Assembly: GCF_000469135.2 (NCBI RefSeq)
Contig: NZ_CP048117.1
Coordinates: forward strand, 3,137,501-3,201,500
Length of the DNA: 64,000 nucleotides
From: Bacillus sp. SB49
GTDB lineage: Bacteria > Bacillota > Bacilli > Bacillales > Halobacillaceae
Direction of reading: 5' to 3'
Shown: positions 38,045 through 63,499 of the stretch, one piece after another
Layout of the letters: each line of letters opens with the position of its first letter
Numbering within the stretch: position 1 is the stretch's first letter
Made by a program: the position numbers and the translations under genes
Notes under the pieces: generated by a model
Told to the model about the DNA's origin: nothing
Seen by the model: the letters and a program-made list of their open reading frames with translations, nothing else
The model's database searches: none

Positions 38045-38061
38045 TGACTCCCCCTTGGCGT

Positions 38062-40180: not shown

Positions 40181-40198
40181 AAAAGAAAGATACAATGG

Positions 40199-41151: not shown

Positions 41152-41152
41152 C

Positions 41153-46196: not shown

Positions 46197-47819
46197 TTAA
46201 AGCGCATGATAGATCTCTACAGTGTCAACATTAACACCATCAGAAGATCGGAAGGAGTAGTCATAGTCCGCTGTATGATACAACATTAAGGTTGAACCAC
46301 TTTCTAAATCAGGGTCTCCCAGCTCTCCTTTTAAGTTAGCTACAGCGACGTCTATGTCTTCAATAATAAATTTCTCAGCTTTAGAATCTTCCCCAAATAC
46401 AGCCATTAACCCATTGCTGTATCTGTACTCATTCCCTACCAATAAAGGCTCGCCGTAATTTCGGTCCAGTACAACTTTACTTTTACCTAATTCATTTTTC
46501 GACAAGTCGATCAAAGGCTTTGTTTCACTTATGAAAACTTCTTCGACCTCTTCTTCCGTATAGGAAGGGGAAGTTATTTCACTTGTAGAGTCCTCTTGAA
46601 TCCATGCTTTTTTGTTGTTATCCACGCTTACTTTCAACCACTCTTCACCATTCGTATCTTTTTCTTTCTCCAACACCAGCAGAGATTCTGAAAACATCAC
46701 ATTACCTGAGTCCTCAGATTCTGCATCAGGAGAACTCTTTAACACTGCGCCCTCCGGTTCAGTTACATAACGGGCTTCTGTGTCCGTATTTTCCGTACTA
46801 TTTTCCGTAGTCTCTACAACATCGTTTTCTTCCTTGTCGCTTATTGTTTTTTCAACCTGAACATTACTCGTCGTAAGAGCATTTACATACTCAGTAATAT
46901 CGTTCTTGGACATATACGTAAAAGAAACCAAGATCAACATGAATATAGTAAGCAATGTATTCTTTACAGCTTTTTTTCTCTTTCTTCTTTTCTTCTTTTT
47001 AAGCTTTTCCTTGCTTACAGTAGCTTCTTTGACTTCTGCTTGCTTACTGATTCCTTGTTCTTTAAATGCTTGTTGGTCTTTTTTGCTCATTTTCTTATAA
47101 TCATTTATGAATTCTGTGTATTTAGGCAGAACCTCATGTATATCTCCTTGATCCCTTACCTCACCATGCTCAAGCCAGACGGCCTTTGTACAAAAGCTTC
47201 TTACTTGAGCTGCCGAGTGACTGACGAAGAATATTGTCTTCCCCTGAGCCTTGAATTCATTCAATTTATCCAAACACTTATCTGCAAAGGTTTGATCCCC
47301 AACAGAAAGAGCTTCATCTATAATCAACACATCTGGATCGACACTGACGGAGATCGCAAAACCTAACCTTGACCTCATTCCACTTGAGTACTTCTTTACC
47401 GGCATATCAATAAACTTACCAATATCAGCAAAGTCGATAATCTCCGGCTCCAAGTCTTTGATTTCTTCTTTTTTAATACCCATCATCAGGCATTTCAGCT
47501 CAATATTTTCTCTACCTGTCAATTCTTTATTTAATCCAGCAGAAACTGCAATTAATGCAACTTCTCCTCTGACAGTAATGCTTCCATAGGTAGGCGCTGT
47601 TACATTCGCGATCAGGTTGGAAATCGTTGACTTACCGGAACCGTTGATTCCTATAACTCCTACAATGTCTCCAGGTCTCGCCTCGAAGCTGATATTTCGG
47701 ACAGCATAGAAATCGTTCTCAGAACTCCCGGTCGAGAACAGACTCTTTAATTTATCGGACTTCTTACTATGCATCTTATATCGTTTTGTTACGTTATGAA
47801 GCTTAACTGAAAAACTCAT
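46197..47819 (-). CDS. tagH: ABC exporter ATPase with membrane helix and SH3 domain (TagH-like)
   Basis: 540 residues. The ATPase has Walker A GINGSGKST (57-65), signature YSSGM (144-148) and Walker B LIIDEA (165-170). A Lys/Arg-rich stretch precedes one membrane helix (about 288-303), and an outer part follows with a bacterial SH3 domain (about 349-412) and a C-terminal domain of about 110 residues. This layout and the sequence match Bacillus TagH, the wall teichoic acid exporter ATPase. No teichoic acid synthesis gene is nearby; the Kdo/KpsC/KpsS operon is, so the exported glycan may be the Kdo-linked one. Confidence 0.88.
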   Translation of the reverse strand: MSFSVKLHNVTKRYKMHSKKSDKLKSLFSTGSSENDFYAVRNISFEARPGDIVGVIGINGSGKSTISNLIANVTAPTYGSITVRGEVALIAVSAGLNKELTGRENIELKCLMMGIKKEEIKDLEPEIIDFADIGKFIDMPVKKYSSGMRSRLGFAISVSVDPDVLIIDEALSVGDQTFADKCLDKLNEFKAQGKTIFFVSHSAAQVRSFCTKAVWLEHGEVRDQGDIHEVLPKYTEFINDYKKMSKKDQQAFKEQGISKQAEVKEATVSKEKLKKKKRRKRKKAVKNTLLTIFMLILVSFTYMSKNDITEYVNALTTSNVQVEKTISDKEENDVVETTENSTENTDTEARYVTEPEGAVLKSSPDAESEDSGNVMFSESLLVLEKEKDTNGEEWLKVSVDNNKKAWIQEDSTSEITSPSYTEEEVEEVFISETKPLIDLSKNELGKSKVVLDRNYGEPLLVGNEYRYSNGLMAVFGEDSKAEKFIIEDIDVAVANLKGELGDPDLESGSTLMLYHTADYDYSFRSSDGVNVDTVEIYHAL

Positions 47820-47834: not shown

Positions 47835-48650
47835 CTATAAATAATCTACGAAATGCTTCTTAAACTTCATGTGGAGACTTGCCCCTACTATGAGCATACA
47901 TATAACTAAAGTCCAGAAATAAAGTGTGTATCCTACATCTTCAAAAAACCAGCGGCCTCCTATAAATGCGTCTCTATAGCCTTCAACAATATAATATAGA
48001 GGATTAATCTTAAGGATGGTTTCCACCAGATTTTTCATCGACTCGGGAAGACTATCGGTTGTCCACAGAATAGGTGTTAAATACAGCAGCATACGAATTA
48101 CCGAACGTAAGCCTGTCTGAATATCCCGCACAACTGTAGTTAAAGTGGAGAATATAAGTGCAAAGGCAAAAATAAAGCTTACCAAAGCAAACATATAGTA
48201 GGGTAACTGAATAAAGTAGATGGATATCCCACCTGCAAAGATAATATAAATAATGGTTAGAAATGTCCCTAGGAAAAGGTGTTGATAAAAGGACGATAAT
48301 ATAACAAAACTAGGAATGGCACTGACAGGAAAATTCATTTTGGATATTAAATTCAGTCTAGAATGAATAGACCTCGATCCGTTCATTGCCGCCGCATTGA
48401 AGAAAAACCAGACGAACATGCCGATGGACAACCAATAAACAAAAGGGACTCCGTTGACATCTTCCCCACCACGAATACCTATGCCGAATACAAACCAATA
48501 AATTAGTAATTGGATGATCGGGTTGATTATCTCCCAAGCCATACCCAGATAATGGTTACTGTTATTGCTTTTCATTTGAAAAATGGACAATCGCTTAATT
48601 AAATACGCACTGCCGATTTGTTCTCGTAATAATTTGATTGTGGAATTCAC
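47835..48650 (-). CDS. tagG: ABC-2 polysaccharide exporter permease (TagG-like)
   Basis: About 271 residues from the GTG at 48650, nine bases after an AGG-type ribosome site; the GTG at 48665 has none. The N-terminus (MKSNNSNHYLGMAWEIINPI) is very close to TagG. Six membrane helices. It pairs with the ATPase encoded 15 bases downstream and shares the family with KpsM, so it can serve either a teichoic acid or a Kdo-primed glycan. Confidence 0.88.
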   Translation of the reverse strand: MNSTIKLLREQIGSAYLIKRLSIFQMKSNNSNHYLGMAWEIINPIIQLLIYWFVFGIGIRGGEDVNGVPFVYWLSIGMFVWFFFNAAAMNGSRSIHSRLNLISKMNFPVSAIPSFVILSSFYQHLFLGTFLTIIYIIFAGGISIYFIQLPYYMFALVSFIFAFALIFSTLTTVVRDIQTGLRSVIRMLLYLTPILWTTDSLPESMKNLVETILKINPLYYIVEGYRDAFIGGRWFFEDVGYTLYFWTLVICMLIVGASLHMKFKKHFVDYL

Positions 48651-48665
48651 AAGCAGTTTCCTCAC

Positions 48666-49025: not shown

Positions 49026-52000
49026 ATGGCAAACACCCCGTTTAAAAACGCTTTGTTCCTCTCCAACTTCACCATTGATATGGGGGACCCAAATTTCCGT
49101 ACAGGTGCTTACTCCAAGTTCCTGGAGCCGATGGCTGATTCTTTATCAAAGATCAGTGATGTAGATGTCAAGTTCCTGGCTTCTAAACACACGTTTGACT
49201 CGATCACGAGGGATGCTAAAGCATCCAAAATAAAGAAAGACAATACGTTCATTGTCGATTACCAACGTAGTATCGATATCTTCGGATTCGGGGACTGGTT
49301 TATCCGCAAATCTTATAATGACGAGTTTACGAATGAAGAGAAAGCTTATATATCCGGCTATTTCAAGTCATTATTCGGTAACTGGGAGCCTGATCTTATC
49401 GTAAGCTGGGAATTCCCGACTACCATCCTGCGGTCTCTGTTCCCAGATGCTTTAGTCATTGACCTCATGCCTGGTTTGTTTATGAGACCTCCCTACCCAA
49501 GGACTATTTCCATTGATCCATCAGGTCTATACAAAGACAGTGCTTTTTCCAGCCAGATAGATCCTTCAACACGTGCGAAAGCTACAGATCAGGAATTGGA
49601 TAATTATTATCGGATCAGAGATCACTATGAAACCTTCTATCGTGATCATAAAACAAAAGATATGATTCTATCCAAATTCCAAAACCCTGAGAAATTCAAC
49701 AAGTTCGCATTAGTTCCTTTGCAGATTTCCCAGTACTTTGGCTTCCATGAGAATACACCTTATACATCACAATTCGATTTCTTATTAGATGTCCTCAGAA
49801 ATACGCCGGAGGATACGGGGGTTATTGCTACACAGTATATTAGTGGTCTATTACAGGAAAAAGCTATCAATGACAAGAACATAGACTTCCTTCATGCTAA
49901 CTTCCCGAATTTCCTTTACTCTAAAGAATTCGAGAAAGTAGACAACATATCCCAGTATATCGTTCCGTGGGCAGATATTACTTATTCCGTCTCCAGTACA
50001 ATCGGCTTACAGACGAAATTCTTTGATAAGAAATTGATTTCCCCTTCCAGATCCCATCTGGCATATTTTGCAGACGAGACAGAACTGGGTAAGGATGGTT
50101 CAAACGAACACAATGATCATAATATGGCTTTGCTGTTGAATAGAGGTACATTCCTTGAGTCCCGACTTATCAATGAACCACAGTACCTGCTGGATATATT
50201 CACAGAAATGGCCGCTAACAAAAAGAATGGTAAAACTGGAATCGATCTCTTAGCTGGTCGTACCATCCATAAAGCCAATAAAGAAACACCGCTTCATTAC
50301 ATCGCTACATCCTCTCAACATGCAGCCGAGCGTCAACTGGCCAAACTTGGTGGATCAGCTGCCAAGTCTAAGAAAAATGAGTTGAAGGATATTCTTAATA
50401 AAATGGAAGAAGCCAGCATCGTTTCCTTCGACGTATTTGACACGTTGCTTTGTCGTTCTGTGTTCAAGCCGGAAGATGTCTTCCTCCTCATGCAGAAGGA
50501 ACTGGCTTCAGGAGAGAAGAAGATAGATATTCCTTCTCACATCATCGGTGCGTTCGCTGAATTGCGGAAAGGCGTGGAAAGACAGTTAAGACAGGAAAGA
50601 GATGCAGCGTTAAAACTTCCAGAGTGTGAGCTGCAGGAAGAAATCCTTATTGAGGATGTGTACCGCATCCTGATCGAACAATTCGGCGGAAGTGCAAACG
50701 CTGCTCAGGAACTTGTAGATTTTGAGCAGGAAATGGAGTTCCGCATATTAAAACCGCGGCCGGTCGGTAAGTTCCTATTTGACGAAGCTGTCCGCGCTGG
50801 AAAACAAGTGATTATCATTTCTGATTTCATTCATGATAAAGTCTTTGTCAGCCAAGCACTTAAAAATGCCGGAATCACACAATATGATCATCTGTTCGTC
50901 TCTGCAAATGCTGGTATGAAGAAACACTCCGGTGATCTCTTCCATCATGTCGTAGAGCAGTTGAGTCTTGATACTAACAGTGTTCTTCATATTGGGGATA
51001 ATGCGATAGGAGACCTAGCTAAAGGACATGAAGCTGGTTGGACGACCATGCGGATTACTTCAGCAAGGGAAAGAGCATTGGATATCCTTAAAAACCGTGA
51101 TCTCTCTCCGGCAATCGTCGATAAGAGCTTCTTCCTGCGTACATCTCTGTCGCTATTTGCCGAAGAGTTCTTCAACACGAAGACATACAATCCGGACACT
51201 CCTAAGAATGAGAAGGAGAATCGCAATATTGTAGAAAGCGGTTTTGAGTTCGGATACCTGGCCTTGGGTCCAATCATGTACAATTTCTCCGAATGGATTC
51301 TTAAGCAGGCGAAAGACAAGGGCTGCACTTCCATCGTCTTCTTTGCCAGGGACTGTTACCTGCCTCATAAAGTTACAAAGAAAATTCTTGAAACGAGACA
51401 GGATGACAGCATAGAAGTGCATTACATCCCAGCCTCCAGAAAAGGTTTGATGGGGCTTAACCTGTATCAGCCGGAAGATTTCCTAAAAGTACGGATCGAT
51501 GATTTCAACAGACGTAAGACGCTTGCAGATTTGATCGAGAGCCGTTTCGGGTTGGATCCTTACACCTTCTCCCAAGCCACTTTGGACAAATGGGGCGTAG
51601 AGGATATTGATGTAGAAGTCCGCTATGTAACATCTGCCGCAGTTTATGGTATCGTTCTTGCCCACGTAAGAAACAACTGGGAAGACGTATCTGCCATGCT
51701 TGACGATAAGCGTGATGTGTACACGAGGAAGTTGAAGGAAATTGGAGTCGACTTGAGCAAGGATACTCTGGCGCTGGACTTCGGATACAAAGGATCCACT
51801 CACAAAATGATCCGTGAACTGTTCCAAGGAGAATTCCATCCTGCATTCTTCATGACCTTTGCAGATGATTTCGGCAGAGATCCTATCGAGAATGCCGCAA
51901 GCTTCTACATGACGAATTTGAACCCTGTTCATAAGAACGGTAACATCATGTTAAGTCATAACTTGATTATCGAAACGTTAGTCAACGAACCTACCGGAAG

Positions 52001-52829
52001 CTTGATCGAAGTCATAGAACAAGATGGAGAGATAAGGACGGTAAAAGAAGAATTGGGTTCCGCCGATCACTTATCCAAGGTCAATGCGATCCACCAGGGT
52101 GTATTGAAGTTTGCTGACAGCTGGCTGGGAAGTTTCCAGGCCTTCCCTTCCTCTCTCGCTACGTTGGAAATGAATTCAGCCGAGTACTTCCTTTCCTCTA
52201 TTTTGAGAAAGCCGGTCGTAGAGGAAACGGACGTGTTGAAAGGTTTATTGTTTGATAATGCATTCGCAGGACATGCCAACCGTTATATCCTTTCTCCAAA
52301 TGCAGGGGCAAAAGACAACCAGAGTATTTGGAAAGAGGGTCATCGCGTCTATCAAGCGAGCATTCCAAAAAAAAACAGCAATCCGGTAAAAAAGCCCGCA
52401 CCGAAAAAAAAGCCTGAACCACCAGTAAAACAAGTAAATACACCGGCTCCTGCTCCCGCAAAACCAAAGCAGCAAGCTGCTCCGAAGAAACCGGCAGCTA
52501 AAGCTGTACCGGAGAAGAAAAAAGCCGTGAAGAAACCGGCGAAAATCGTACTGCAGAAGAATAAAGTTATGATCGGAGATCAAAGCTATCCTAAGCAGAT
52601 AACTGCACTTAAAGTGCTGCATAGAAATGAATTTATCGAGGTCATCTCCTGGCTGGCTAAACTTACTCCATCCGAGGAAGTTCGAAGAAGCTATGCGGAT
52701 ATGATCAAAGAAAATCCCAAAACATATGTAGCTGCCAGGTTATTGAACGAGTATGGCGGTATTTCAAAAGCAGATATCTCCAAGAAAGATAAGCTGCGTT
52801 CCTATAGAAGCCTGATGATGAAAAAATAA
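49026..52829 (+). CDS. Giant glycan-assembly protein: KpsS-like domain fused to a HAD-containing (COG5610-like) module
   Basis: 1267 residues, the only plus-strand gene of the Kdo region. Residues about 1-400 resemble capsule KpsS-type glycosyltransferases (VPLQISQYFGF at 230-240, SVSSTIG at 321-327). Residues about 455-690 are a HAD domain with SFDVFDTLL (nucleophile D469) and HIGDNAIGD as motif IV; position +2 of motif I is Phe, as in haloacid dehalogenases, not the Asp of phosphatases. Residues about 740-1095 (FFARDCYLPHKV, LALDFGYKGS) match the C-terminal part of COG5610-like proteins found in glycan loci. A Lys/Pro/Ala-rich linker (about 1113-1178) and a small terminal domain end it. No signal peptide. 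It probably builds or phosphorylates the polymer; function is inferred. Confidence 0.75.
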   Translation: MANTPFKNALFLSNFTIDMGDPNFRTGAYSKFLEPMADSLSKISDVDVKFLASKHTFDSITRDAKASKIKKDNTFIVDYQRSIDIFGFGDWFIRKSYNDEFTNEEKAYISGYFKSLFGNWEPDLIVSWEFPTTILRSLFPDALVIDLMPGLFMRPPYPRTISIDPSGLYKDSAFSSQIDPSTRAKATDQELDNYYRIRDHYETFYRDHKTKDMILSKFQNPEKFNKFALVPLQISQYFGFHENTPYTSQFDFLLDVLRNTPEDTGVIATQYISGLLQEKAINDKNIDFLHANFPNFLYSKEFEKVDNISQYIVPWADITYSVSSTIGLQTKFFDKKLISPSRSHLAYFADETELGKDGSNEHNDHNMALLLNRGTFLESRLINEPQYLLDIFTEMAANKKNGKTGIDLLAGRTIHKANKETPLHYIATSSQHAAERQLAKLGGSAAKSKKNELKDILNKMEEASIVSFDVFDTLLCRSVFKPEDVFLLMQKELASGEKKIDIPSHIIGAFAELRKGVERQLRQERDAALKLPECELQEEILIEDVYRILIEQFGGSANAAQELVDFEQEMEFRILKPRPVGKFLFDEAVRAGKQVIIISDFIHDKVFVSQALKNAGITQYDHLFVSANAGMKKHSGDLFHHVVEQLSLDTNSVLHIGDNAIGDLAKGHEAGWTTMRITSARERALDILKNRDLSPAIVDKSFFLRTSLSLFAEEFFNTKTYNPDTPKNEKENRNIVESGFEFGYLALGPIMYNFSEWILKQAKDKGCTSIVFFARDCYLPHKVTKKILETRQDDSIEVHYIPASRKGLMGLNLYQPEDFLKVRIDDFNRRKTLADLIESRFGLDPYTFSQATLDKWGVEDIDVEVRYVTSAAVYGIVLAHVRNNWEDVSAMLDDKRDVYTRKLKEIGVDLSKDTLALDFGYKGSTHKMIRELFQGEFHPAFFMTFADDFGRDPIENAASFYMTNLNPVHKNGNIMLSHNLIIETLVNEPTGSLIEVIEQDGEIRTVKEELGSADHLSKVNAIHQGVLKFADSWLGSFQAFPSSLATLEMNSAEYFLSSILRKPVVEETDVLKGLLFDNAFAGHANRYILSPNAGAKDNQSIWKEGHRVYQASIPKKNSNPVKKPAPKKKPEPPVKQVNTPAPAPAKPKQQAAPKKPAAKAVPEKKKAVKKPAKIVLQKNKVMIGDQSYPKQITALKVLHRNEFIEVISWLAKLTPSEEVRRSYADMIKENPKTYVAARLLNEYGGISKADISKKDKLRSYRSLMMKK

Positions 52830-52897: not shown

Positions 52898-54091
52898 TTA
52901 ATCAAAGGAGTTTCTTATTCTATTCGCAAAAAAAGATGCCTCCGCATATCCTAAATCGGAATCTTTCATAAAGAAAGTAATCAAACTTTCCCTGAATGTC
53001 GGATTTCCTCTATTAATTTTCACGGCGCATTTCAAGTAATGTCCTGCTTCATCCAAGTCTCCTGCCTGCATATACATCAAACCTAAACTATGGTAGGCAT
53101 GGGCATGCCATGGATTTATAAGAATGGAGTGTTTCAGCAATTTCTCTGCCCGCTCTCTCTTGCCTCTTCTTTTGTACAATGCTCCCAGCTTCGCGTATGC
53201 TTCAAACTGATATTCACAAAGGTCGATGGACTTCCACCACGCTTCTTCCGCATCATCGTGCTGACGCAGGCGGTGGTATGCTTCCCCCAAACGAAGCCAG
53301 TAAAGGGATTCTCCCTTACAGGTAGAAAACATTCTCTTTAAGTATTTTATATGATATTTCTTATCCTTCTTCACCTTTTTTATATGATCGGCATGATACA
53401 GGGCTACGACAGCCTCCTGATTCTCTTCCAATATTCCTCTTCTCGGTATATCTTCCTCTGTTTCATTCCCTTTTGTGAATGTTTCAATTAAATGTACCAG
53501 TTTGTTTTCTAAGTGGACCGGCTGTACACCTGGATGAAAAGATCCCTTCACTGTATATGTATGTACATTGGGGATATCTCTTAACCAGTATTGGCTGATA
53601 AGATCCCACTCATCACTTTCACTTGCAAGCAGCCAAATTTTCATCGTGTTTTGATTCATAAGAGGTTTTAACCTCCGATACTTTACCTTCAGGCCATCCG
53701 GCATATGAAGCTGACTTCTGCTCCCTTGTTTATTAAGGACAGACTCCACACCAAAAGCCAAACATTTGTCCGCTCCGCCTAGTAACCCATATAACAGTGC
53801 ACCATAAGCCCCCATGGAAGTCCCGAATGTCGTAACATGACCATTCCCTAATTCTCTTGCAGCACGGATAAGCATTTCCGCCGCTTCTTTCGGATCTATG
53901 GAGTAACCGACGATACCATGCTGATACCACAGGTTCCCATGATCGTTTACAAAAATGATATTAACATCCGCTTCGATAATTGCCTTATATGGTTTGAACT
54001 TCCCCGGTGGAGTATTCACTTGGGAGAATGCCACTAACGTAGGCAGGTGCTTTCCTTTACTGATAATCTGTACGTATTCATTTTCTATCAT
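52898..54091 (-). CDS. Alpha/beta-hydrolase with C-terminal TPR repeats (copy 2)
   Basis: About 397 residues; the ATG at 54091 has the best spacing to GGGGG. Same architecture as copy 1: a nucleophile elbow GTSMG (S92 in this numbering) preceded by the shared LWYQHGIVG run, a late histidine in GSFHPG, and TPR units in the C-terminal 160 residues (LGALYKRRGKRERAEKLLKH, LGLMYMQAGDLDEAGHYLKC). It is the last gene behind the Kdo/KpsC genes, though a terminator-like hairpin precedes it. Possible acyl modification or release of glycan; substrate unknown. Confidence 0.75.
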   Translation of the reverse strand: MIENEYVQIISKGKHLPTLVAFSQVNTPPGKFKPYKAIIEADVNIIFVNDHGNLWYQHGIVGYSIDPKEAAEMLIRAARELGNGHVTTFGTSMGAYGALLYGLLGGADKCLAFGVESVLNKQGSRSQLHMPDGLKVKYRRLKPLMNQNTMKIWLLASESDEWDLISQYWLRDIPNVHTYTVKGSFHPGVQPVHLENKLVHLIETFTKGNETEEDIPRRGILEENQEAVVALYHADHIKKVKKDKKYHIKYLKRMFSTCKGESLYWLRLGEAYHRLRQHDDAEEAWWKSIDLCEYQFEAYAKLGALYKRRGKRERAEKLLKHSILINPWHAHAYHSLGLMYMQAGDLDEAGHYLKCAVKINRGNPTFRESLITFFMKDSDLGYAEASFFANRIRNSFD

Positions 54092-54128
54092 CATCTTTCC
54101 CCCCACAAAAAGACACTGGTAAATAAAA

Positions 54129-54160
54129 GGATGAGAGAGAAACTTAATCCCCTCTCATCC
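54129..54160 (-). terminator. Attenuator-like hairpin between the KpsC paralogue and the hydrolase gene
   Basis: GGATGAGAG/CTCTCATCC, a 9-bp stem followed on the minus strand by TTTTATTT. It overlaps the KpsC paralogue stop codon. Downstream expression may depend on read-through. Confidence 0.65.
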
Positions 54161-55279
54161 CATTAACTGCATATTCTTCTGTTTATAGAGCAGGTCGATT
54201 GCTTCTTCCACTTCTATTCTGGAACGATCTACCGGATTAACGTACACAGGATAGAGAATATATGCTGCAGCAAATACTTCTGCCAAGGTTCGTTGCTGTT
54301 TCCTTCTCGGAACTGGCTGACGGTCGTCTGTAAGGCCCCAACCAGAATAAAAGGGAGCTCCTATGCACGTCACCTTTATTCCTCTCATCAATGCTTCAAA
54401 GCCCGCTAAAGAAGTGATCGTATACACGTGATCGATCGTCTGAAATGCGTCCGACAAACTCAATGGGGTTGTAATTACAGTGGCTATATCCTGCACATGT
54501 GCTGGATTACTGAGAGCATCCCTCCGCCCGAATAATACATCAGGATGAGGCTTATAAATGATTTCCGCATCCGGATTTTCTTTACTCGCCAGCCTGACTA
54601 AGTCATTATTCGTAATGGAACGCTCACAACCCATTTTAATAGACGCATCGTCCTCTACTTGACCGATGACGAGAATCCTCTTTCTATTCTTAGGGCCATA
54701 GATCTCCTGTATGTTCTGACTTTTCACATGATTATACTTACTTAAACCTAGTTGGTTTAAACGAGTCATGCATATCCCGGCACGCTCCAGCAGCTCTACA
54801 TCTTTAGAAAAATCATAGGTATTAAGCATATCCTCCAAGTCACTTGGTTTCTTGGAGTTATAATAAAGCTCTTGTTTGTCCAAGCACATGGATATAGGCT
54901 CAGAGAACATCGAGCCTAGACCGATGGACCGGATGAAGCCGTCTTCCATCCTGTAAACCGGGATGTTGTATTTGTCTGCGTATTCCACTAACTTCTTCTG
55001 CTCGGCATATCCCCACACGATAAACACTTTGTTCTTGTAAAGGCGAAGCAGGTATGGGAGAAGCACCCCTCCAGATGAAGGGATAAACTTAATGGTATAG
55101 CCAGTCAGGAAATTTGGTATGAATGAATGTTTCCACTTGGAGAAGTGAAAAAGGAAAGCTACGGGAGCTTCTTTCTTACTCCTCCGTTCAAACAGCCATC
55201 GCATAAACAGGATGTCCGCTTCTATCCTATTGATGATCTTCTTGATGATACGCTTTGTCCTCTTAAACACAACATTCAT
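54155..55279 (-). CDS. Single-module KpsC-like beta-Kdo transferase paralogue
   Basis: 374 residues, one KpsC module with both signature sites: EDGF at 112-115 and KPHP at 243-246, and the FYSGWGLTDDR run near 310-320. It is closest to the first module of the adjacent three-module protein (shared YGPKxxKRILVxGQVEDDAS), so a duplication is likely. It would add one type of beta-Kdo linkage. A basic N-terminus (KRTKRIIKKIINR) could touch membrane phospholipid. It lies 21 bases after kpsC. Confidence 0.85.
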   Translation of the reverse strand: MNVVFKRTKRIIKKIINRIEADILFMRWLFERRSKKEAPVAFLFHFSKWKHSFIPNFLTGYTIKFIPSSGGVLLPYLLRLYKNKVFIVWGYAEQKKLVEYADKYNIPVYRMEDGFIRSIGLGSMFSEPISMCLDKQELYYNSKKPSDLEDMLNTYDFSKDVELLERAGICMTRLNQLGLSKYNHVKSQNIQEIYGPKNRKRILVIGQVEDDASIKMGCERSITNNDLVRLASKENPDAEIIYKPHPDVLFGRRDALSNPAHVQDIATVITTPLSLSDAFQTIDHVYTITSLAGFEALMRGIKVTCIGAPFYSGWGLTDDRQPVPRRKQQRTLAEVFAAAYILYPVYVNPVDRSRIEVEEAIDLLYKQKNMQLMG

Positions 55280-55300
55280 TCTTCAAGCTCCTTCACTGGC

Positions 55301-58300
55301 TCAGTTAACCGGTTCTGTTCTTGATTCTTTAATATGCTCAATTACCTCAAAGATCGTCCCGCGTCTGCCTGTTTCCGGATTAATATATCTCGGGTACATT
55401 AAGTAAGCAGCAGCAAACACTTCTTCTACCGTCCTTGTTACTTGCCTTCTCGGACACTGCAGCCGGTCCACTGTAATTCCCCAATTGGAGTAGAAAGGAA
55501 GTCCGAAACAATGCACTCGCTTCCCGAGCATCAATGCTTCAAATCCCATTTGGGAAGTGACCACATAAACTTCGGAGAACTGTTCTAACAGGGTCAACGG
55601 GTTGCAGTCATCATATATAAAGTACGTATGCTCATCTATTTCTACGTTGGAGAAGTAACCCTGCTTCTTCCCTGCGATGACATCCGGGTGTGTCTTGATA
55701 TAGATGTCCGCTTCAGGATGGTCTTCTCTAGCGGAATGATACATCTCTTCAAAACGGCTTTCATCCGCCATTCCCAATCCTACAGACTTGTCTCCGAGAG
55801 TTTGGTCGATCAGTAATACTCTTGTTTTTGAATAATCCTTGATCAGACTCTTATCCATAGGAGGAGCATGGTTATACTTGCTCAACTGGTTCTCAACAAT
55901 TAAACGCTTTGCTTCGCAGGCTTGATCCATCAGCTCTTCCGTTTCCCATCCTGGCGTGTTCAAAATGTTCTCCAGTCTGGAAGGTCGAGTGCCGTCATAA
56001 TAAATACCTACATCATCCACACACATGGAAAGAGGAGGATAATTATTCACTCCCAGCCCCACCGAACGAAGGAATCCATCTTCCAGGCGTAAATACGGGA
56101 TGTTATGCTTTTCCCCGAAAGCGATAGCCTTCTCTGCACTCGGCTTCATCCCCCAGCCTGCAATGAAGCTCAAACTGTTGATTGACTTCGCAGGAGAAAA
56201 GTTCACTGTACCATTAAGGAAAGACTGCAGGTTTGGGATGTCTTTGATTCCCTTCGACAAGATTCCAATATCCCCATTCTCTTCTCCTTTCACTTCAAGT
56301 TCCTCGAGTGACAAGGGTTGATTCTCTTTAGATGAAGTCATGCTATTGGTCGGGAGATTAGTGGTCCTTTCTTTGTTTATCCACTTATCTTTAACACCTT
56401 TCAGAGCCGTCTTCATGAATCCGATCATCTCTATCGCCTCTTTCAAACTAATCTTTTCTTTCGTGAAAGGATGGTAATAGGAGGTGCAGAGCATATAACT
56501 GCCGATAAACAACTCTTCCAAAAGAAGGGTCCTGTGACGGAATAACGTCTTACTTCTATCATCGGTCAGACCCCACCCTGCATAAAACGGCTCCCCAAAA
56601 GTGGTCACTTGCTTCCCGTAAAGCAAAGCTTCCATTCCACCCAAAGCTCCTTGTGTATAGACATGATCGACTCCACCTATGACCTGTGCCAGTGTCACAG
56701 GTTGGTCGATGATCCGGACAAAATGTTCGATGTCCTCCACTTCAGGATCTTTCTTACCTTCCAATAGATACAAAGGATGAGGAATGTAGAGAAGTTCTGC
56801 CTCCGGGTTTTCCATTTTTGCAATCCATGCCATATCCTTCACGGATGTGTTTGAGGTTTGTTTTTTGTCTCCTAGTAATAAAACTCGCCTTCCAGAGTCT
56901 GTTTCGCTCATTTCATAGACATGCTCTTGGCTGGAGAGATTATATTCACTTATTCCGTATTTCTTTATCAGCTTCATAGCCTCTTGAGCTTTCGCCTTCA
57001 GCTCAGGGCGAGAGGCAAAGTCATAGTTATACATAGATTGGATGATGGCCTCATCTGTACTCTTCAAGCTCCCATCTGCTTCGTGAACATACAGAGAGAA
57101 CGAAAGGTCGTTACCCAAACGGCCCCCTCCCATGTTGATGGGACCTGTCTTGACAACTTTCACTTGGATCTTCTTCTCAGCGGCCAATTCAAGGATCTCA
57201 TCTATCTTAGAAAAACCATCCCATATGATGAATTCTAAATCGGTATATGGTGCAGATCTCTCATCTAAACTTGCAAGCGTTTCATCAGCAGAAATGAACA
57301 CTTTCTCATCATGAGAAAAGTAAGCATTGGCATAATCCGCTTTAGTTAAGTCGAATCCAAAGAAAAACGCAGCCGGTTCCGTAACCTTCTTCTGTATCGC
57401 GCGGTCTTGAATAGCACTTCTCATACGCTCTATGATACGGACAGCTTCTTCTGCGGATATCTCCTCTTTAGTAAAGGGACTGATATACTTCGGATAGAGC
57501 AAGTAAGCTGCTGCAAATATTTCATCGATCGTCAATGTTCTGTTACGCCGAGCTACTTCTTGTCTATCATCTGTCAATCCCCATCCAGAATAGAACGGAG
57601 CACCGACAGTTGTCACACTTATCCCACGTATGAGTGCTTCAAAACCTGCAAGTGATGTGATGGTATAAACGTGATCAATGGTTTTGAAGGCATCATTCAA
57701 ACTTAGTGGTTCTCTAATGACTTGGGCAATATGAGCTACATCTTCAGGGTTTGACTGCATAGCTCTTTTACCGAATAATACATCTGGATGTGGTTTGTAT
57801 ATAATTTGTGCGTCGGGATTCTCTGTCTTCGCAAGCCACACTAAATCATTATTCGTCATTTTCCTCGCGCTTCCTTTGGCTATGGAAGCATCATCCTCCA
57901 CCTGACCTACTACAAGTATCCTCTTCTGTGTTTTAGGGCCGTAAATCTTCTCGGTGTTTTTCTTTGAGACATTGTTATATTTACTGATTTCAAGATTCGT
58001 TAACAATTTCATCGTAGTTCTTGCTTTATCCATTAATTCATTGTCTTCCGAAAAAGGGTGGTTATTCAGAATATCCTCCAGGTCGCTTGCTTCTGTACTA
58101 TCATAATATAAAGCTTTACTGTCAAGACACATGGATAACGGGATACTGTGAGCAGCTCCTAAATCTACTGAACGAATGAAACCATCTTCCATTCTGTAAA
58201 GCGGTATTCCGTAATTTTGTGCGAAAGACTTCATCTTTTGATGCTCTTTATACCCCCACACAATAAACACTACATCGTCATACTGCTTGGCTTGCTTCAA

Positions 58301-58525
58301 TGTTTTACCTACACTTTGTTTCTCTTCTACGAAAATCATTTGATATTCAGGATAAAACGATTGAACATGATCTCTTTTCCAGAGGCTGAAACCTATCATG
58401 AACGCAACCGTCTTCTCTGTTTTTTGCTTTGGTTTAATTTTATGTACACTGGAAGCCAACTTCGCATAACCTTTATCTCCGACAATCGCCTTTGTCAAAT
58501 CCTTCATTTTACTCACGACAGCCAC
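55301..58525 (-). CDS. kpsC: Three-module KpsC-like beta-Kdo transferase
   Basis: 1074 residues in three tandem modules. Module 1 (about 38-372) has EDGF at 113-116 and KPHP at 244-247. Module 2 (about 384-712) keeps the FYAGWGLTDDR run but has KTGP where EDGF should be and IPHP for KPHP, so it is probably inactive. Module 3 (about 752-1065) has EDGF at 815-818, KTHP and an NNYPPLSMCVDDVGIYYD run like the N-terminal module of Gram-negative KpsC. Known KpsC has two modules making alternating Kdo linkages that join capsule to lipid. The start may be the GTG at 58525 or a nearby GTG/ATG. Confidence 0.88.
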   Translation of the reverse strand: MAVVSKMKDLTKAIVGDKGYAKLASSVHKIKPKQKTEKTVAFMIGFSLWKRDHVQSFYPEYQMIFVEEKQSVGKTLKQAKQYDDVVFIVWGYKEHQKMKSFAQNYGIPLYRMEDGFIRSVDLGAAHSIPLSMCLDSKALYYDSTEASDLEDILNNHPFSEDNELMDKARTTMKLLTNLEISKYNNVSKKNTEKIYGPKTQKRILVVGQVEDDASIAKGSARKMTNNDLVWLAKTENPDAQIIYKPHPDVLFGKRAMQSNPEDVAHIAQVIREPLSLNDAFKTIDHVYTITSLAGFEALIRGISVTTVGAPFYSGWGLTDDRQEVARRNRTLTIDEIFAAAYLLYPKYISPFTKEEISAEEAVRIIERMRSAIQDRAIQKKVTEPAAFFFGFDLTKADYANAYFSHDEKVFISADETLASLDERSAPYTDLEFIIWDGFSKIDEILELAAEKKIQVKVVKTGPINMGGGRLGNDLSFSLYVHEADGSLKSTDEAIIQSMYNYDFASRPELKAKAQEAMKLIKKYGISEYNLSSQEHVYEMSETDSGRRVLLLGDKKQTSNTSVKDMAWIAKMENPEAELLYIPHPLYLLEGKKDPEVEDIEHFVRIIDQPVTLAQVIGGVDHVYTQGALGGMEALLYGKQVTTFGEPFYAGWGLTDDRSKTLFRHRTLLLEELFIGSYMLCTSYYHPFTKEKISLKEAIEMIGFMKTALKGVKDKWINKERTTNLPTNSMTSSKENQPLSLEELEVKGEENGDIGILSKGIKDIPNLQSFLNGTVNFSPAKSINSLSFIAGWGMKPSAEKAIAFGEKHNIPYLRLEDGFLRSVGLGVNNYPPLSMCVDDVGIYYDGTRPSRLENILNTPGWETEELMDQACEAKRLIVENQLSKYNHAPPMDKSLIKDYSKTRVLLIDQTLGDKSVGLGMADESRFEEMYHSAREDHPEADIYIKTHPDVIAGKKQGYFSNVEIDEHTYFIYDDCNPLTLLEQFSEVYVVTSQMGFEALMLGKRVHCFGLPFYSNWGITVDRLQCPRRQVTRTVEEVFAAAYLMYPRYINPETGRRGTIFEVIEHIKESRTEPVN

Positions 58526-58557
58526 ACCACCTTTAAATTTACTCTGACATAAAACAA

Positions 58558-58579
58558 ATAGCAGGGCTAGGCCTGCTAT
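58558..58579 (-). terminator. Weak terminator-like hairpin before kpsC
   Basis: ATAGCAGG/CCTGCTAT, an 8-bp stem with a 6-base loop, then TTGTTTTA on the minus strand. It may lower kpsC expression relative to the Kdo synthesis genes. Confidence 0.55.
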
Positions 58580-58587
58580 AAGGGAAG

Positions 58588-59022
58588 TTATCTATTCAAG
58601 TATGAAGAGACACGATCATTCAAACGATCGTATTCCAGGACAGCAACTTGTTTGCTCGTCTTAACCTTTTGTTGAGTTGCCTGTTCAATCAGAGGCAGCC
58701 CTTTAACTTCTTCTTCTCTGCTCCTGGGAATCAAATGCAGATGCAAATGCCTCACTGCTTCACTGATTGTAACTACATAAAGGCGTTCTGCTTTATCTTC
58801 TTCCCGAAGGACTTTTTCTACTTCCTGTACAAGCGGCCCCATCTCTGTCAACTCTTGAACAGATAAATCCGTCCAATTCTCTACATGCCTCTTCGGTTCC
58901 AGGTAATAATAACCGAGGACCTGCGAAGCATGAGGACCAGCGCTAACAGCCCAGTGGGCATTCTCATATAGAATGGAAGCGTCTTTCTTCTTATGTTTCT
59001 CGCATATTGGACATATGGTCAT
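58588..59022 (-). CDS. HIT-family protein
   Basis: 144 residues with the histidine triad HLHLHLIP near residue 92 and an N-terminal CPIC zinc-type motif. HIT proteins hydrolyse or transfer nucleotidyl groups. In the middle of a Kdo operon (11 bases after kdsC) a role with CMP-Kdo or its CMP by-product is conceivable, but that is inference. A general housekeeping HIT hydrolase is the alternative. Confidence 0.85.
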   Translation of the reverse strand: MTICPICEKHKKKDASILYENAHWAVSAGPHASQVLGYYYLEPKRHVENWTDLSVQELTEMGPLVQEVEKVLREEDKAERLYVVTISEAVRHLHLHLIPRSREEEVKGLPLIEQATQQKVKTSKQVAVLEYDRLNDRVSSYLNR

Positions 59023-59033
59023 GGTGAATCCCC

Positions 59034-59582
59034 TTACTGTTGAAGCTTTATAGTTTCTGACTGGGTTACACCGGCAAGGTAATCTTCAATGAACTGGTTA
59101 AGGTCGCCTTTTTCTTGAAGGATTGCTTCGACAACTTCCCTCACGGCCCCTTCGCCGCCTTTCGCCTTCGTAACGAAATCGACATCCCGCTTCACTATCT
59201 CCACCCCGTCACTCGGAGCACAGGAGAAACCGGCATTTCTTAAGACCGGAAGATCATTGATGTCATCTCCGACATAACAAACGTCTTCCATTGTAAGACT
59301 TAGAGATTCCAAGATTTCATCCAGCACTTTCTGCTTGTGATGAATTCCTTGGTAGACAAAGTCTATTTTCAGTTCACCGGCACGTTTCTCCACAGAAGGA
59401 GATTTCCTGCCCGTAATAATCGCCGTCTTAATACCGGCATAACGGGCTAGGCTCAACCCCATGCCGTCTTTCGTATGGAACGGTTTATATTCTACTTGGT
59501 CGGACCCGATGTAGAGCTTGCCGTCTGTTAGGACGCCGTCTACGTCAAGAACGATTAATTTCACGTTTTCTGCACTCATCAT
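59034..59582 (-). CDS. kdsC: 3-deoxy-D-manno-octulosonate 8-phosphate phosphatase
   Basis: 182 residues, HAD superfamily without cap domain. The nucleophile loop VLDVDGVLTDG, TGRKSPSVEKRAGEL and GDDINDLPVL match KdsC. It removes phosphate from Kdo-8-P, the third step of Kdo synthesis. It overlaps the kdsD stop. Confidence 0.92.
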   Translation of the reverse strand: MMSAENVKLIVLDVDGVLTDGKLYIGSDQVEYKPFHTKDGMGLSLARYAGIKTAIITGRKSPSVEKRAGELKIDFVYQGIHHKQKVLDEILESLSLTMEDVCYVGDDINDLPVLRNAGFSCAPSDGVEIVKRDVDFVTKAKGGEGAVREVVEAILQEKGDLNQFIEDYLAGVTQSETIKLQQ

Positions 59583-60565
59583 TAAATCCCCAAATTCATC
59601 ATATCGTGGAAGTGGATCATTCCCAGAGGCTTGTTATTGTCATCAATAACCGGCATGACATTGATCCGCTTCTCTTCCATTATTTCCAGGACGTTCGTTG
59701 CCAACACATCGGCTTTCGTAGTGATAGGCATCGTATTTCCTAATTCCTGAACAGTCTTGCCTAAGACAGACTCTCCATCAGCCATGGCTCTACGGATATC
59801 TCCATCTGTGAGTATTCCTGCCAGTTCTCCAGCTTCATCCACAATACACGTGGCACCAAGTCCGTGTCGTGTCATTTCAAACAACGCTTCTTGGACTGTT
59901 GTTCCTGACGTGACGATCGGTGTCTTTTTCTTAGTGGCAAGCAGATTATCGATGGTCATCAACAACCGGCGCCCTAATGATCCACTTGGATGATAAAGTG
60001 CAAAGTCTTCCGGTTGGAAATTGCGCTTTTTAAGTAGTGCGACAGCAATGGCATCACCGAGAGCGAGTGTTACCGTCGTACTGGTAGTAGGTGCCAAACG
60101 TAAAGGACAAGCTTCTTCAAAATGCCCCAACGTAAGGACAACATCAGATTTGATAGCTAAAGTTGACATCGGATTTTTCACAATAGCGATAAGGTTGACC
60201 CCGATCTTATCCAGGGAAGGTAGTAGATTTAACACTTCGTCTGTTTCCCCGCTGTTGGATAGGGCAATGACTGTATCGTCAGAAGTAACCATCCCAAGAT
60301 CCCCGTGAAGACCTTCAGAAGGATGCATATAGATAGCCGGTGTTCCCGTACTGGCAAGGGTGGCAGCGATTTTCTTACCGACAAGTCCGGATTTCCCCAT
60401 GCCGGTGATGATCGTACGGTTTTTGGTCGTGTAGATCATCTCAATCGCTTTTTCGAGATCATCCATGTCAATAGATTCAATTAAATCACGAATAGCATTC
60501 GCTTCTACATCCAGCACTTCCTTGACGATCGTCTTATAGTCAACTTCCGTTTTCAAATCTAACAT
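59582..60565 (-). CDS. kdsD: D-arabinose-5-phosphate isomerase
   Basis: 327 residues of the KdsD/KpsF family. A SIS domain (GMGKSGLVGKKIAATLASTG, then SNSGETDEV) is followed by two CBS domains (from about 200). It converts ribulose-5-phosphate to arabinose-5-phosphate, the first step of Kdo synthesis. Standard full length; 18 bases after kdsA. Confidence 0.93.
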   Translation of the reverse strand: MLDLKTEVDYKTIVKEVLDVEANAIRDLIESIDMDDLEKAIEMIYTTKNRTIITGMGKSGLVGKKIAATLASTGTPAIYMHPSEGLHGDLGMVTSDDTVIALSNSGETDEVLNLLPSLDKIGVNLIAIVKNPMSTLAIKSDVVLTLGHFEEACPLRLAPTTSTTVTLALGDAIAVALLKKRNFQPEDFALYHPSGSLGRRLLMTIDNLLATKKKTPIVTSGTTVQEALFEMTRHGLGATCIVDEAGELAGILTDGDIRRAMADGESVLGKTVQELGNTMPITTKADVLATNVLEIMEEKRINVMPVIDDNNKPLGMIHFHDMMNLGI

Positions 60566-60583
60566 TATACACCTACCACCTTT

Positions 60584-61414
60584 TTATTTTATATTCTTCA
60601 CTAACCTGTCGATTTCTTTAATTGGCTTCAAAATCTCTTCCAGCTCTTCCATGCGGACCATGTTCGGACCATCAGAAGGTGATTTCTCAGGCTCTGGGTG
60701 TACTTCCATGAACAGACCGTCGATGCCGATACTTGCTGCTGCTCTGGATAGGTATGGAACGAATTCACGTTTACCACCTGTAGAAGTTCCATTACCACCT
60801 GGGATTTGTACACTGTGTGTTGCGTCAAAGACAACCGGCGCACCAAGCTCACGCATTGTCACAAGGGAACGCATGTCGACGACAAGGTTGTTGTAACCGA
60901 ACGTAGAACCACGCTCTGTAAGAAGTGTGTTATCGTTCCCAGACTCCTGAAGCTTCGTTACAACGTTCTTCATATCGTTAGCTGCAAGGAATTGACCCTT
61001 CTTCACGTTAACGACTTTTCCTGTTTTTGCTGCTTCTACAAGCAGGTCCGTTTGACGGCAAAGGAAAGCAGGGATTTGAATGATATCCAATACTTCTCCA
61101 GCTGCTGCAGCTTGGTCTGGTGTGTGGATATCGGAAGTGACAGGTACGCCTACTTCTTCTTTGATAGCCGCAAGCATTTCCAAGCCTTTTTCCAAACCAG
61201 GTCCACGGTAAGAATGGATTGAAGAACGGTTTGCTTTATCGAATGATGCTTTGTACACATAAGGAATTTCCAGACGATCGGTAATTTCTTTCACGCGTTT
61301 CGCATTTTCAATTGCTTCCTGCTGGTCTTCCAGTACACAAGGTCCTGCGATTAGGACGAAGGGATTGTTTCCTCCGAAAGTGATTTGGTCGTTTAGTTTC
61401 GTCTCGATTGTCAT
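60584..61414 (-). CDS. kdsA: 3-deoxy-8-phosphooctulonate synthase
   Basis: 276 residues. Runs IAGPCVLED, KASFDKANRSS and FDATHSVQIPGG define KDO8P synthase, condensing phosphoenolpyruvate with arabinose-5-phosphate. C26 in AGPC marks the metal-dependent class; E. coli-type enzymes have Asn at this point. ATGA overlap with kdsB. Confidence 0.95.
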   Translation of the reverse strand: MTIETKLNDQITFGGNNPFVLIAGPCVLEDQQEAIENAKRVKEITDRLEIPYVYKASFDKANRSSIHSYRGPGLEKGLEMLAAIKEEVGVPVTSDIHTPDQAAAAGEVLDIIQIPAFLCRQTDLLVEAAKTGKVVNVKKGQFLAANDMKNVVTKLQESGNDNTLLTERGSTFGYNNLVVDMRSLVTMRELGAPVVFDATHSVQIPGGNGTSTGGKREFVPYLSRAAASIGIDGLFMEVHPEPEKSPSDGPNMVRMEELEEILKPIKEIDRLVKNIK

Positions 61415-62136
61415 TGTGTTACCCCCATGATTGTCTCTACTTTTTGTATATCTTCTGGTACATCAACGCCGACAGCGTCGTATGTCGTTTCAATTACTTT
61501 GATCGTATAGTCATTTTCCAATAGACGCAGCTGCTCCAGCACTTCCACTCTCTCCAGTGGAGACTGCGGCAGATCGACGAATTTGGTGATGACGTTTCTT
61601 GGATAACTATATATGCCTAAATGTTTATAATATGTAGTCGGTTCTTTGGAGCGGTTATAAGGAATTGGCGACCTTGAGAAATAAATTGCCGTGTCCTTTG
61701 AATCTGCGATGACTTTCACAACGTTAGGATCCTGTACATCTTCCATATCCTCAAGCTTTGTCTTTGCAGTAATGACGCTCTCAGGATTTTCAAGGGCCGC
61801 TTCGACCAGCTTATCGATCGTACCTGTGTGAATAAGCGGCTCGTCTCCTTGGATGTTGACGAAGATATCGCCTTCCATTTTGGATACGACTTCCGCCATA
61901 CGGTCGGAACCGGTCTCGTGATCTTCTCTTGTCATGACGACCTTACCACCGAAGTTTAAAACGGTCTGTTTGATATCTTCATGATCGGTTGCGACGACTA
62001 CCTCGTCGATTTTGTCAGACGCGCTGACTCTTTCGAATACGTGCTGGACCATCGGCTTTCCTAGAATGTCTGCCAATGGTTTCCCTGGGAATCGGGATGA
62101 ATTATATCTTGCCGGAATAACACCAATCACTTTCAT
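61411..62136 (-). CDS. kdsB: CMP-Kdo synthetase
   Basis: About 241 residues from the ATG at 62136, which has AGGTGA before it; an ATG 51 bases earlier gives an atypical extension. PARYNSSRFPGKPL, HETGSDRMAEV and NIQGDEPLI are the KdsB signatures. It activates Kdo with CTP for the KpsS/KpsC transferases. The start lies within the end of the kpsS gene. Confidence 0.94.
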   Translation of the reverse strand: MKVIGVIPARYNSSRFPGKPLADILGKPMVQHVFERVSASDKIDEVVVATDHEDIKQTVLNFGGKVVMTREDHETGSDRMAEVVSKMEGDIFVNIQGDEPLIHTGTIDKLVEAALENPESVITAKTKLEDMEDVQDPNVVKVIADSKDTAIYFSRSPIPYNRSKEPTTYYKHLGIYSYPRNVITKFVDLPQSPLERVEVLEQLRLLENDYTIKVIETTYDAVGVDVPEDIQKVETIMGVTQ

Positions 62137-63499
62137 CTCTTTCACCTCTGATGGATAGATTGTTTTCCTGATGCTTATATGCTGCACTTTCTAAATGGTT
62201 CGCTACTTTCTTAGCCGTAGCTGCGTTCGGACTGATCAAGTTGCCTTCTACTTGATAATGAAACCGCAAATAATATAGGAACTGAGAAATCAATGTTTCA
62301 TTAACCGGTTGTTCCAGCACATCTTCAATTAATTCATAAAGCCGGTGAAATTCTTCACAATGCCGGACGACGCCCTCAATATTATAAAAAGCGTCTCCAA
62401 GTGTGATTACACGCTTGTGCTGTGCTAACGCTTCTATGCCTACCGTAGAATTGATGGTTATGACTGCGAGACTTTTCTCGATCAATTCACTAACACTCTG
62501 TTTCTGCAGAAAGACGACATTAGGATCAGAAGCATAACGTTCCTTTAATGCCTTGTAATTATTTCGGGGCATGTCTTCTGGATGTTCCTTGAACACTAGA
62601 CATATATTGCGCCCTTGTCTTTTATTAACTTTTGCTACATGTTCATAAACGAAATCTACGAGCGTCTCCATATTCTTTATGGACGAGTTGTAGAATATTT
62701 GGGTATCCCTGGAGACTTGGAACGGGACGAAGATGTATTCCTTTGGTAATGGTTCTTCATCCTTCTTCTTAAACTTGAATGCTTGCTTGAAAAGAAAATA
62801 TTTAAATGCTTCGTACCAAGTTATGTGGGCATAAAGCTTGGGATTGATACCAAGTATACTTCCAAGCATACTGACAAACTTAACAAAGGCTACCTGAGTC
62901 AGGTTTTCACCTTTCACTTTCAGTAAGTCTTCATTCTCTGGAGCCATTAAATAGTTCTTATATTTATGGGAATTTACTGTGATAGATTCGTAGAATTCCT
63001 GGTATCGTGGGATGGTGGCTGCATTGTTTATTCCATTCGGATCACATGTCAGCGTATATGGGCGGAAATAACCTTGTTCAAAGTAAACCGTTTTGAGGCC
63101 ACGTTGTTTCGCAATGTATGTAGAGACTTGGTCAATCCAATGATAGCCATTAAACATACAGATAACATCAATGTCGTGCTCTTCTATGAAACGATCGATA
63201 AAGTACATATAACGCTTGTACATCTTCAGCTCACGTTTCGATATGTCGGTGTCTTTCATCTCTCTCATGTATGTAATATTATAAATCTGCATGTCCAACA
63301 GTTCTGAGTCGGATATGGAATATGTCTTCCGAGAAACGCGGTTTGGAACAAACACCGCTTCAATCTTACTCGGTATTAAAAGCTCCCCCAGTTCAAACTT
63401 CAACTGATAACATTTATGTCCTGTCTCTTCCAGCTCCGATGCTACATCAGAAAAAAAATATTTATTTCGGTTCCCTCTCAAAAACAAGTAATTTGCCAT
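62102..63499 (-). CDS. kpsS: KpsS-like capsule polysaccharide transferase
   Basis: About 465 residues from the ATG at 63499, chosen because a good promoter -10 lies at 63585-63590, overlapping the alternative ATG at 63586. Family motifs: EQGYFRP at 141-147, VPFQVSRDTQ at 258-267, KEHP at 304-307 and NSTVG at 350-354. In Gram-negative group 2 capsules KpsS places the first Kdo on phosphatidylglycerol. Here it heads the Kdo operon, so the acceptor may likewise be a membrane lipid. Confidence 0.85.
   Translation of the reverse strand: MANYLFLRGNRNKYFFSDVASELEETGHKCYQLKFELGELLIPSKIEAVFVPNRVSRKTYSISDSELLDMQIYNITYMREMKDTDISKRELKMYKRYMYFIDRFIEEHDIDVICMFNGYHWIDQVSTYIAKQRGLKTVYFEQGYFRPYTLTCDPNGINNAATIPRYQEFYESITVNSHKYKNYLMAPENEDLLKVKGENLTQVAFVKFVSMLGSILGINPKLYAHITWYEAFKYFLFKQAFKFKKKDEEPLPKEYIFVPFQVSRDTQIFYNSSIKNMETLVDFVYEHVAKVNKRQGRNICLVFKEHPEDMPRNNYKALKERYASDPNVVFLQKQSVSELIEKSLAVITINSTVGIEALAQHKRVITLGDAFYNIEGVVRHCEEFHRLYELIEDVLEQPVNETLISQFLYYLRFHYQVEGNLISPNAATAKKVANHLESAAYKHQENNLSIRGERDESDWCYSGKI

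Follow-up and report, generated by a model that had tools for sequence, protein, structure and literature searches.

3-Deoxy-D-manno-oct-2-ulosonic acid (Kdo) is a sugar acid typical of Gram-negative surfaces, and KpsS is the initiating enzyme in Gram-negative bacteria. We describe here a row of genes for making and transferring Kdo in Bacillus sp. SB49, within a window of 64,000 bases (the whole stretch of DNA analysed, bases 3137501-3201500 of contig NZ_CP048117.1). A 2025 review presents the Kdo-lipid capsule design as known only from Gram-negative bacteria. In Escherichia coli KpsC, as described in PMC12887879, the beta-2,4 module comes first and the beta-2,7 module second. The beta-Kdo transferases are described as working by double displacement with a Glu base, a His and the Asp of a QXXXD motif, and the N-terminal half of a module determines its linkage (PMC10148158). 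The nearest precedent in Bacillaceae is a genomic island of Bacillus coahuilensis m2-6 carrying kdsB, kpsC, kdsD, kdsC and kdsA; its authors inferred horizontal transfer of genes for lipopolysaccharide (LPS) components and, in the text as excerpted, left the function open (PMC4744853, 2016). No other work on Kdo glycans in Bacillaceae was found among the matches listed from open-licence PMC papers. An earlier sequence-only reading of this DNA had known of no characterised example in Bacillota; the B. coahuilensis island qualifies that claim at the level of genes, its function having been left open.

We propose, with a probability of about 0.5, that a monoderm cell makes an ATP-binding cassette (ABC)-exported surface glycan primed by KpsS and KpsC on a Kdo-bearing membrane lipid, a variant of the group 2 capsule. 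The pathway to cytidine monophosphate (CMP)-Kdo and the KpsS/KpsC-type transferases occur together, in the absence of detectable LpxC and WaaA, in several genera of Bacillota, as the sequence-only reading would lead one to expect.

A compact row of Kdo genes

The window lies in a single closed contig of 3,765,941 bases (completeness 100%, contamination 0.02%). The row kpsS-kdsB-kdsA-kdsD-kdsC-HIT-KpsC-KpsC1, where KpsC1 is a single-module KpsC, occupies 54155-63499 of the minus strand. No intergenic gap exceeds 62 bases: neighbouring genes overlap by about 35, 4 and 1 bases at three junctions and are separated by 18, 11, 62 and 21 bases at the others. The row comprises:

62102-63499, minus strand: kpsS-like retaining Kdo transferase, 465 aa (PF05159, 114 bits; the longest open reading frame reaches 63586)
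61411-62136, minus strand: kdsB, CMP-Kdo synthetase (TIGR00466, 230.9 bits, cut-off 155.2; the longest open reading frame reaches 62187)
60584-61414, minus strand: kdsA, Kdo-8-phosphate synthase (TIGR01362, 402.8 bits, cut-off 314)
59582-60565, minus strand: kdsD/kpsF, arabinose-5-phosphate isomerase type (KpsF/GutQ subfamily TIGR00393, 323.1 bits, cut-off 203.7)
59034-59582, minus strand: kdsC, Kdo-8-phosphate phosphatase type (TIGR01670, 169.9 bits, cut-off 106.95)
58588-59022, minus strand: HIT-domain protein (PF01230)
55301-58525, minus strand: three-module KpsC-like protein, 1074 aa (three PF05159 matches)
54155-55279, minus strand: single-module KpsC-like protein, 374 aa, clade C (one PF05159 match, motifs, module tree)
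54128-54161, minus strand: terminator-like hairpin 3' of the last gene of the row (pattern scan)

The four CMP-Kdo enzymes and the KpsS-like and KpsC-like genes were indeed found in one row, as had been read from the sequence. The "KpsC-like" protein of that reading belongs to the family by PF05159 but proved to be two genes, of 1074 and 374 aa. The KpsS start at 63499 agrees with database copy P0123 and with an alignment of eight sequences. KdsD, KdsA, KdsC and KdsB each pass at least one curated cut-off, and those of the narrower models NF008141, NF009109, NF007019 and NF003948 were not attained; CMP-Kdo production is thus a prediction well supported by enzyme family membership. The region contains 14 terminator-like hairpins against 8.3 expected, so that the hairpin at 54128-54161 is no proof of a terminator, and a pattern scan gave fewer promoter-like sites in the region than in shuffled sequence. 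Contamination, named beforehand as one of the cases that would undo the reading, is excluded by the single closed contig. There is also no clear sign of recent import as a low-G+C island, the G+C content of the row genes being 0.39-0.47 against 0.424 for the window.

KpsS and a rearranged set of KpsC modules

KpsS retains the Glu, Q..D and HP residues in all eight genomes in which it was found. The catalytic His is printed as His94 in PMC10148158; we used the HP-motif His near position 194 of the aligned structure. A profile search of KpsS against the PDB recovered KpsC at 2e-4, and a single-sequence search gave chance PDB matches only. By fold, Foldseek alone ranked generic GT-B folds first; a second look (VIA) placed WbbB first, with KpsC about level with generic GT-B (15.2 and 15.1).

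The 1074-aa KpsC-like protein has the following modules, in order from its N terminus:

57416-58423, minus strand: module 1, clade C (motifs, module tree)
56408-57373, minus strand: module 2, degenerate (motifs)
55316-56290, minus strand: module 3, KpsC-N type, clade B (6mgb, 1e-106; motifs, module tree)

A tree of 62 modules resolved three well-supported clades: A, the canonical KpsC-C (beta-2,7); B, KpsC-N (beta-2,4); and C, a third type. The module trees do not include the KpsS stretches, two partial P0120 pieces or the degenerate middle modules, of which there are three. The 36 Bacillota modules that were placed, a set that includes duplicates, divide into 10 in B and 26 in C, with none in A. 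Proteins from Phytobacter, Pantoea, a Syntrophobacteraceae bacterium and one further source likewise have both of their modules in clade C. Across nine clusters every clade B and C module retains the Glu, Asp and His; loss of Glu and Asp is confined to three middle modules, those of three proteins of 1074-1095 aa. Retaining Kdo transfer by KpsS and KpsC is therefore a well-supported prediction from family and residues.

The module order is reversed relative to E. coli KpsC, since the beta-2,4-type module stands last. As none of the 36 Bacillota modules placed is a KpsC-C, a linker with the known 2,4/2,7 alternation is ruled out, and because a module's N-terminal half decides its linkage, that of clade C is not readable from the sequence. 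Identity with group 2 KpsC is ruled out by the module trees. The expectation of KpsC-type linker enzymes accordingly holds for the KpsC-N-type module and the catalytic residues, and fails for the canonical beta-2,7 module and the usual module order.

The large KpsC proteins of three clusters (G012, G123 and G326) each contain about 390 residues unmatched by the profile. The G012 protein (L145:10840-15345) has 1502 aa, with three similar clade C modules besides the unmatched residues, and G326 has a comparable protein of 1513 aa. At L199:3202-6124, far from the window, two adjacent open reading frames have marginal PF05159 matches, one of them also a marginal PF04464 match.

Distribution and origin of the cluster

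KdsA scored over the cut-off in 2 of the 44 family genomes, in 27 of the 397 sampled from the order, which represent 19 of 135 genera, and in 5 of 398 genomes of a class sample that overlaps the order sample. The KpsS profile matched 8 of the 397 order genomes, in 7 of the 135 genera, and all eight are KdsA-positive (hypergeometric 1.6e-10 for 8/8 among 27 of 397, a value that ignores kinship). We compared stretches of up to 40 kb around kdsA from 28 other genomes. The arrangement kpsS-kdsB-kdsA-kdsD-kdsC-HIT with KpsC and single-module KpsC was present in 8/8 KpsS-positive genomes, the HIT-domain gene lying between kdsC and KpsC in each. The search for a conserved cluster in Bacillota that had been suggested as a check thus returned the same cluster in eight order genomes from seven genera. 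A ninth case, Bacillus sp. J37, shows kdsC-HIT-KpsC-KpsC1 in its 20.8-kb stretch (L008), and this organism is also among the listed KpsS matches. Named KpsS/KpsC relatives among the matches listed come from Halobacillus, Cytobacillus, Rossellomorea, Peribacillus, Ectobacillus and Neobacillus.

In a KdsA tree that included 31 of 78 non-Bacillus loci and both Bacillus loci of the same listing, the nine cluster rows and 12 other Bacillota rows formed one set (Shimodaira-Hasegawa approximate likelihood-ratio test, SH-aLRT, 99), apart from Negativicutes, Halanaerobiales and Pseudomonadota. The nine cluster rows alone were not firmly one clade (SH-aLRT 58), and no recent donor of KdsA was apparent among the sampled Gram-negatives. 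The patchy spread, with 2 of 44 family genomes positive, and the degenerate middle KpsC module could be read as signs of a silent or decaying acquisition. However, all genes are open, the motifs are kept across seven genera and the gene order is identical in eight genomes, and we regard this explanation as quite improbable.

Apart from a 37-bit stretch in a KpsS-like open reading frame of G502, the other 22 Kdo loci gave no match to the KpsC profile. In several of them Wzz/Wzc/CapD genes adjoin the kds genes, so that Kdo there probably enters Wzy-type polysaccharides. Three loci that lack KpsC (G286, G314 and G366) also have a HIT-domain gene next to kds genes. Bacillus sp. J37 has two kdsC genes (L008:1-12430): the first precedes HIT-KpsC, and the second belongs to a kdsA-kdsD-kdsC set on the far side of KpsC.

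Markers of an outer membrane

Kdo is typical of LPS, and Negativicutes and Halanaerobiales are diderm Bacillota (PMC5007114), which would favour a role of the pathway in an LPS-type outer membrane. However, the LpxC and WaaA profiles each matched in none of the eight cluster genomes, including the present one, whereas E. coli and other controls were matched. This extends genome-wide, for these two genes, the earlier observation that no lipid A or WaaA gene lies in the window. The LPS explanation is refuted as far as both markers go, and KdsA groups apart from Negativicutes and Halanaerobiales; we give it almost no credence. KpsE and KpsD were not noticed within the window, no search aimed at them having been made.

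A teichoic-acid-type exporter beside the row

Two genes for an ABC exporter lie near the row:

47835-48665, minus strand: TagG-like ABC exporter permease (PF01061; the sole TagG match in the present genome)
46197-47819, minus strand: TagH-like ABC exporter ATPase with a C-terminal extension (NF010066, 353.6 bits, cut-off 320)

An ABC exporter is found near 8/8 clusters. It is of the TagGH type in five (G000, G107, G123, G339 and G388), and the remaining three (G012, G094 and G326) have a short two-gene ABC pair resembling KpsMT and Wzm/Wzt; the pairs of G012 and G094 score 40-46 bits with the KpsM model against a cut-off of 300. TagG matches occur in 7 of 22 members of the genus, two of them weak, and TagG is therefore not core. 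In one genome of the same genus with no KdsA over the cut-off (G014), the same flanking genes enclose TagGH and another glycan cassette, named by eye as N-acetylmannosaminuronic acid (ManNAcA) type, with a UDP-N-acetylglucosamine epimerase, a UDP-N-acetylmannosamine dehydrogenase and glycosyltransferases. This arrangement was not seen in the other three same-genus genomes compared (G015, G004 and G018). With different glycan cassettes beside TagGH in different genomes, the site acts like a cassette locus, and TagGH probably exports whatever the cassette makes. G388 has two TagG copies, one within the Kdo cluster and one beside TagB/F-type genes.

A TagGH exporter also raises the alternative that the Kdo glycan is a wall polymer, exported by TagGH and transferred to peptidoglycan by a LytR-CpsA-Psr (LCP) enzyme, like wall teichoic acid. 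A TagU-like LCP gene was found in the compared stretch of 6/8 KpsS clusters versus 6/22 other Kdo loci, rough counts because stretch lengths differ (the G107 gene scores 511 bits with NF006897, cut-off 441). The TagGH-type exporter in 5/8 clusters is consistent with this alternative, as is the finding of strong TagB/F-type matches in only one of the eight cluster genomes (G388, 446 bits). However, no LCP gene was found within 64 kb around the present cluster, and the kin of KpsS do not make polyprenyl-pyrophosphate-linked glycans, the substrates on which LCP enzymes are described. We consider a wall polymer unlikely.

A candidate polymerase and neighbouring genes

Between the exporter genes and the row lie two further genes:

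49026-52829, plus strand: 1267-aa likely polymerase (N-terminal Kdo-transferase-like fold, about residues 8-425, with HAD phosphatase and PRPP-transferase-like domains)
52898-54106, minus strand: hydrolase-like TPR protein, possible accessory (TPR families; hydrolase part by eye; a relative in G094)

The profile matches of the 1267-aa protein are Bcs3 (4e-38), 7shg (9e-34) and, weakly, KrkA (7.5e-6), and its fold agrees. The key Asp and Arg residues of the HAD and PRPP-transferase domains are invariant in 28 homologues, and the protein is likely of the polysaccharide ribofuranosyltransferase type. A homologue is present in the G094 cluster, and 8 of 14 other Bacillota copies appear to share a genome with KpsC or KpsS among the matches listed.

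The clade C modules invite another explanation, namely that Kdo is itself a building block, in poly-Kdo or a Kdo-containing repeat, with the extra KpsC-like modules as polymerase. These modules exceed the apparent need of a linker in every cluster, with up to three in the 1502-aa protein. E. coli capsules with Kdo in the repeat are described as having GT99/GT107-like domains, and K6 is putatively poly-Kdo (PMC13171606). Moreover, 19 of the 27 KdsA-positive order genomes are without this KpsS, and Kdo is therefore used otherwise there. On the other hand, KpsS is present in every cluster, and a separate ribofuranosyl-type polymerase stands beside the cluster here and in G094. A Kdo-built polymer appears rather unlikely.

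Other genes were noted around these loci. The invariant Tyr at the catalytic Asp position of the Kdo-transferase-like part (49026-50330) also occurs in homologues named Kushneria and Sneathiella. A second TPR hydrolase-like protein at 44946-46121, together with the protein at 52898-54106, flanks the exporter and polymerase genes. Proteins at L152:4686-6935 (749 aa) and L184:8614-11028 (804 aa) combine a GT2-like domain with a Capsule_synth domain in which the Q..D and HP motifs are kept (by eye) and are candidate alternative polymerases. At 42880-44826 the window encodes a 648-aa secreted-looking repeat protein with relatives at the corresponding place in G012, G014 and G094. A separate polysaccharide locus with a Wzx/Wzy look (by eye) spans 23625-42593, its polymerase-like gene being very A+T-rich (G+C 0.286), and two open reading frames at 20666-23073 resemble an IS21-type helper ATPase and transposase (by eye).

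Proposed mechanism

In the Kdo-lipid-primed glycan that we propose, KdsD, KdsA, KdsC and KdsB, assigned to these families by profile, would make CMP-Kdo. KpsS, with its catalytic residues in place, would begin by linking one Kdo to a lipid, for which the analogy suggests phosphatidylglycerol. The KpsC-N-type module may then add a beta-2,4 Kdo, and the clade C modules may add further Kdo in place of the missing beta-2,7 module. The 1267-aa protein, judged by profile and fold, would elongate this primer with a ribofuranose-containing polymer, and the adjoining TagGH, judged by its position and by the cassette exchange at the locus, would export the chain. Since no outer membrane genes were detected, the chain would remain at the external surface of the cytoplasmic membrane and extend through the wall, like lipoteichoic acid. 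We infer the lipid anchor from kin enzymes; the clade C linkage, the polymer and the exporter substrate are likewise proposed parts of the model.

Several observations weigh against this proposal. The curated KpsS equivalog NF050054 gives 131 bits, far under its cut-off of 600. The canonical beta-2,7 module is missing from all 36 Bacillota modules, and no KpsC-N-type module was detected in G012, G123 or G326. In the Kdo-transferase-like part of the 1267-aa protein, the QXXXD Asp is Tyr in 28/28 homologues and the HP His is Tyr in 27/28, so that the Asp and His of the N-terminal module that mark KrkA (GT140) are absent. The exporter and polymerase genes stand outside the tight row. TagH passes the teichoic acid exporter model, and the present TagG is nearer to the G388 copy that adjoins TagB/F-type genes (55%) than to its counterpart in the Kdo cluster of G388 (43%). 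The genome also has a TagA-family gene 18 kb outside the window and, far from the cluster, two marginal PF04464 (TagB/F-type) matches of 24.8 and 21.3 bits (cut-off 22.1), which makes a teichoic-acid-like polymer elsewhere in the genome possible. The TagU-like LCP genes near 6/8 clusters point to wall attachment.

More tentatively, monoderm Bacillota may have their own class of ABC-exported, Kdo-lipid-anchored capsule, with KpsS, a rearranged KpsC carrying a third linkage module, a teichoic-acid-type exporter and exchangeable polymerases, one of which has Tyr in place of the nucleophile. If the cluster works as proposed, a Kdo-lipid primer does not depend on an outer membrane, a single locus unites capsule export with that of teichoic acid, what the linker does becomes testable in a cell lacking such a membrane, and Kdo would be weakened as a Gram-negative marker.

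Comparison with known systems

Kdo genes with kpsC in Bacillus have been known since 2016; new here are the KpsC module analysis, the exporter association, the cassette exchange and the polymerase resemblance. With the B. coahuilensis island (GIm2d) the present locus shares kdsB, kpsC, kdsD, kdsC and kdsA in a Bacillaceae genome; the island is described in PMC4744853 as strain-specific, low in G+C and of LPS type. The TagGH exporter of wall teichoic acid is matched in the passing of the TagH model, the TagG-type permease and the extended TagH; here, in contrast, the exporter adjoins a Kdo cassette in a genome without strong TagB/F genes. The 1267-aa protein shares its HAD and PRPP-transferase part, by profile and fold, with KrkA of E. 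coli K13 and Bcs3 of Haemophilus influenzae b. It also shares the N-terminal Kdo-transferase fold of KrkA but has Tyr at the Asp position and, in 27 of 28 homologues, at the His position. Group 2 capsules (KpsS, KpsC, KpsMT and KpsED) have in common with the present system the CMP-Kdo genes, KpsS/KpsC-like transferases with the same catalytic residues, an ABC-2 exporter and an exchangeable polymerase. They differ from it in that the host here is without LpxC and WaaA, the exporter is of the TagGH type, and the KpsC set has no canonical KpsC-C, a reversed module order, an extra single-module KpsC and a degenerate middle module.

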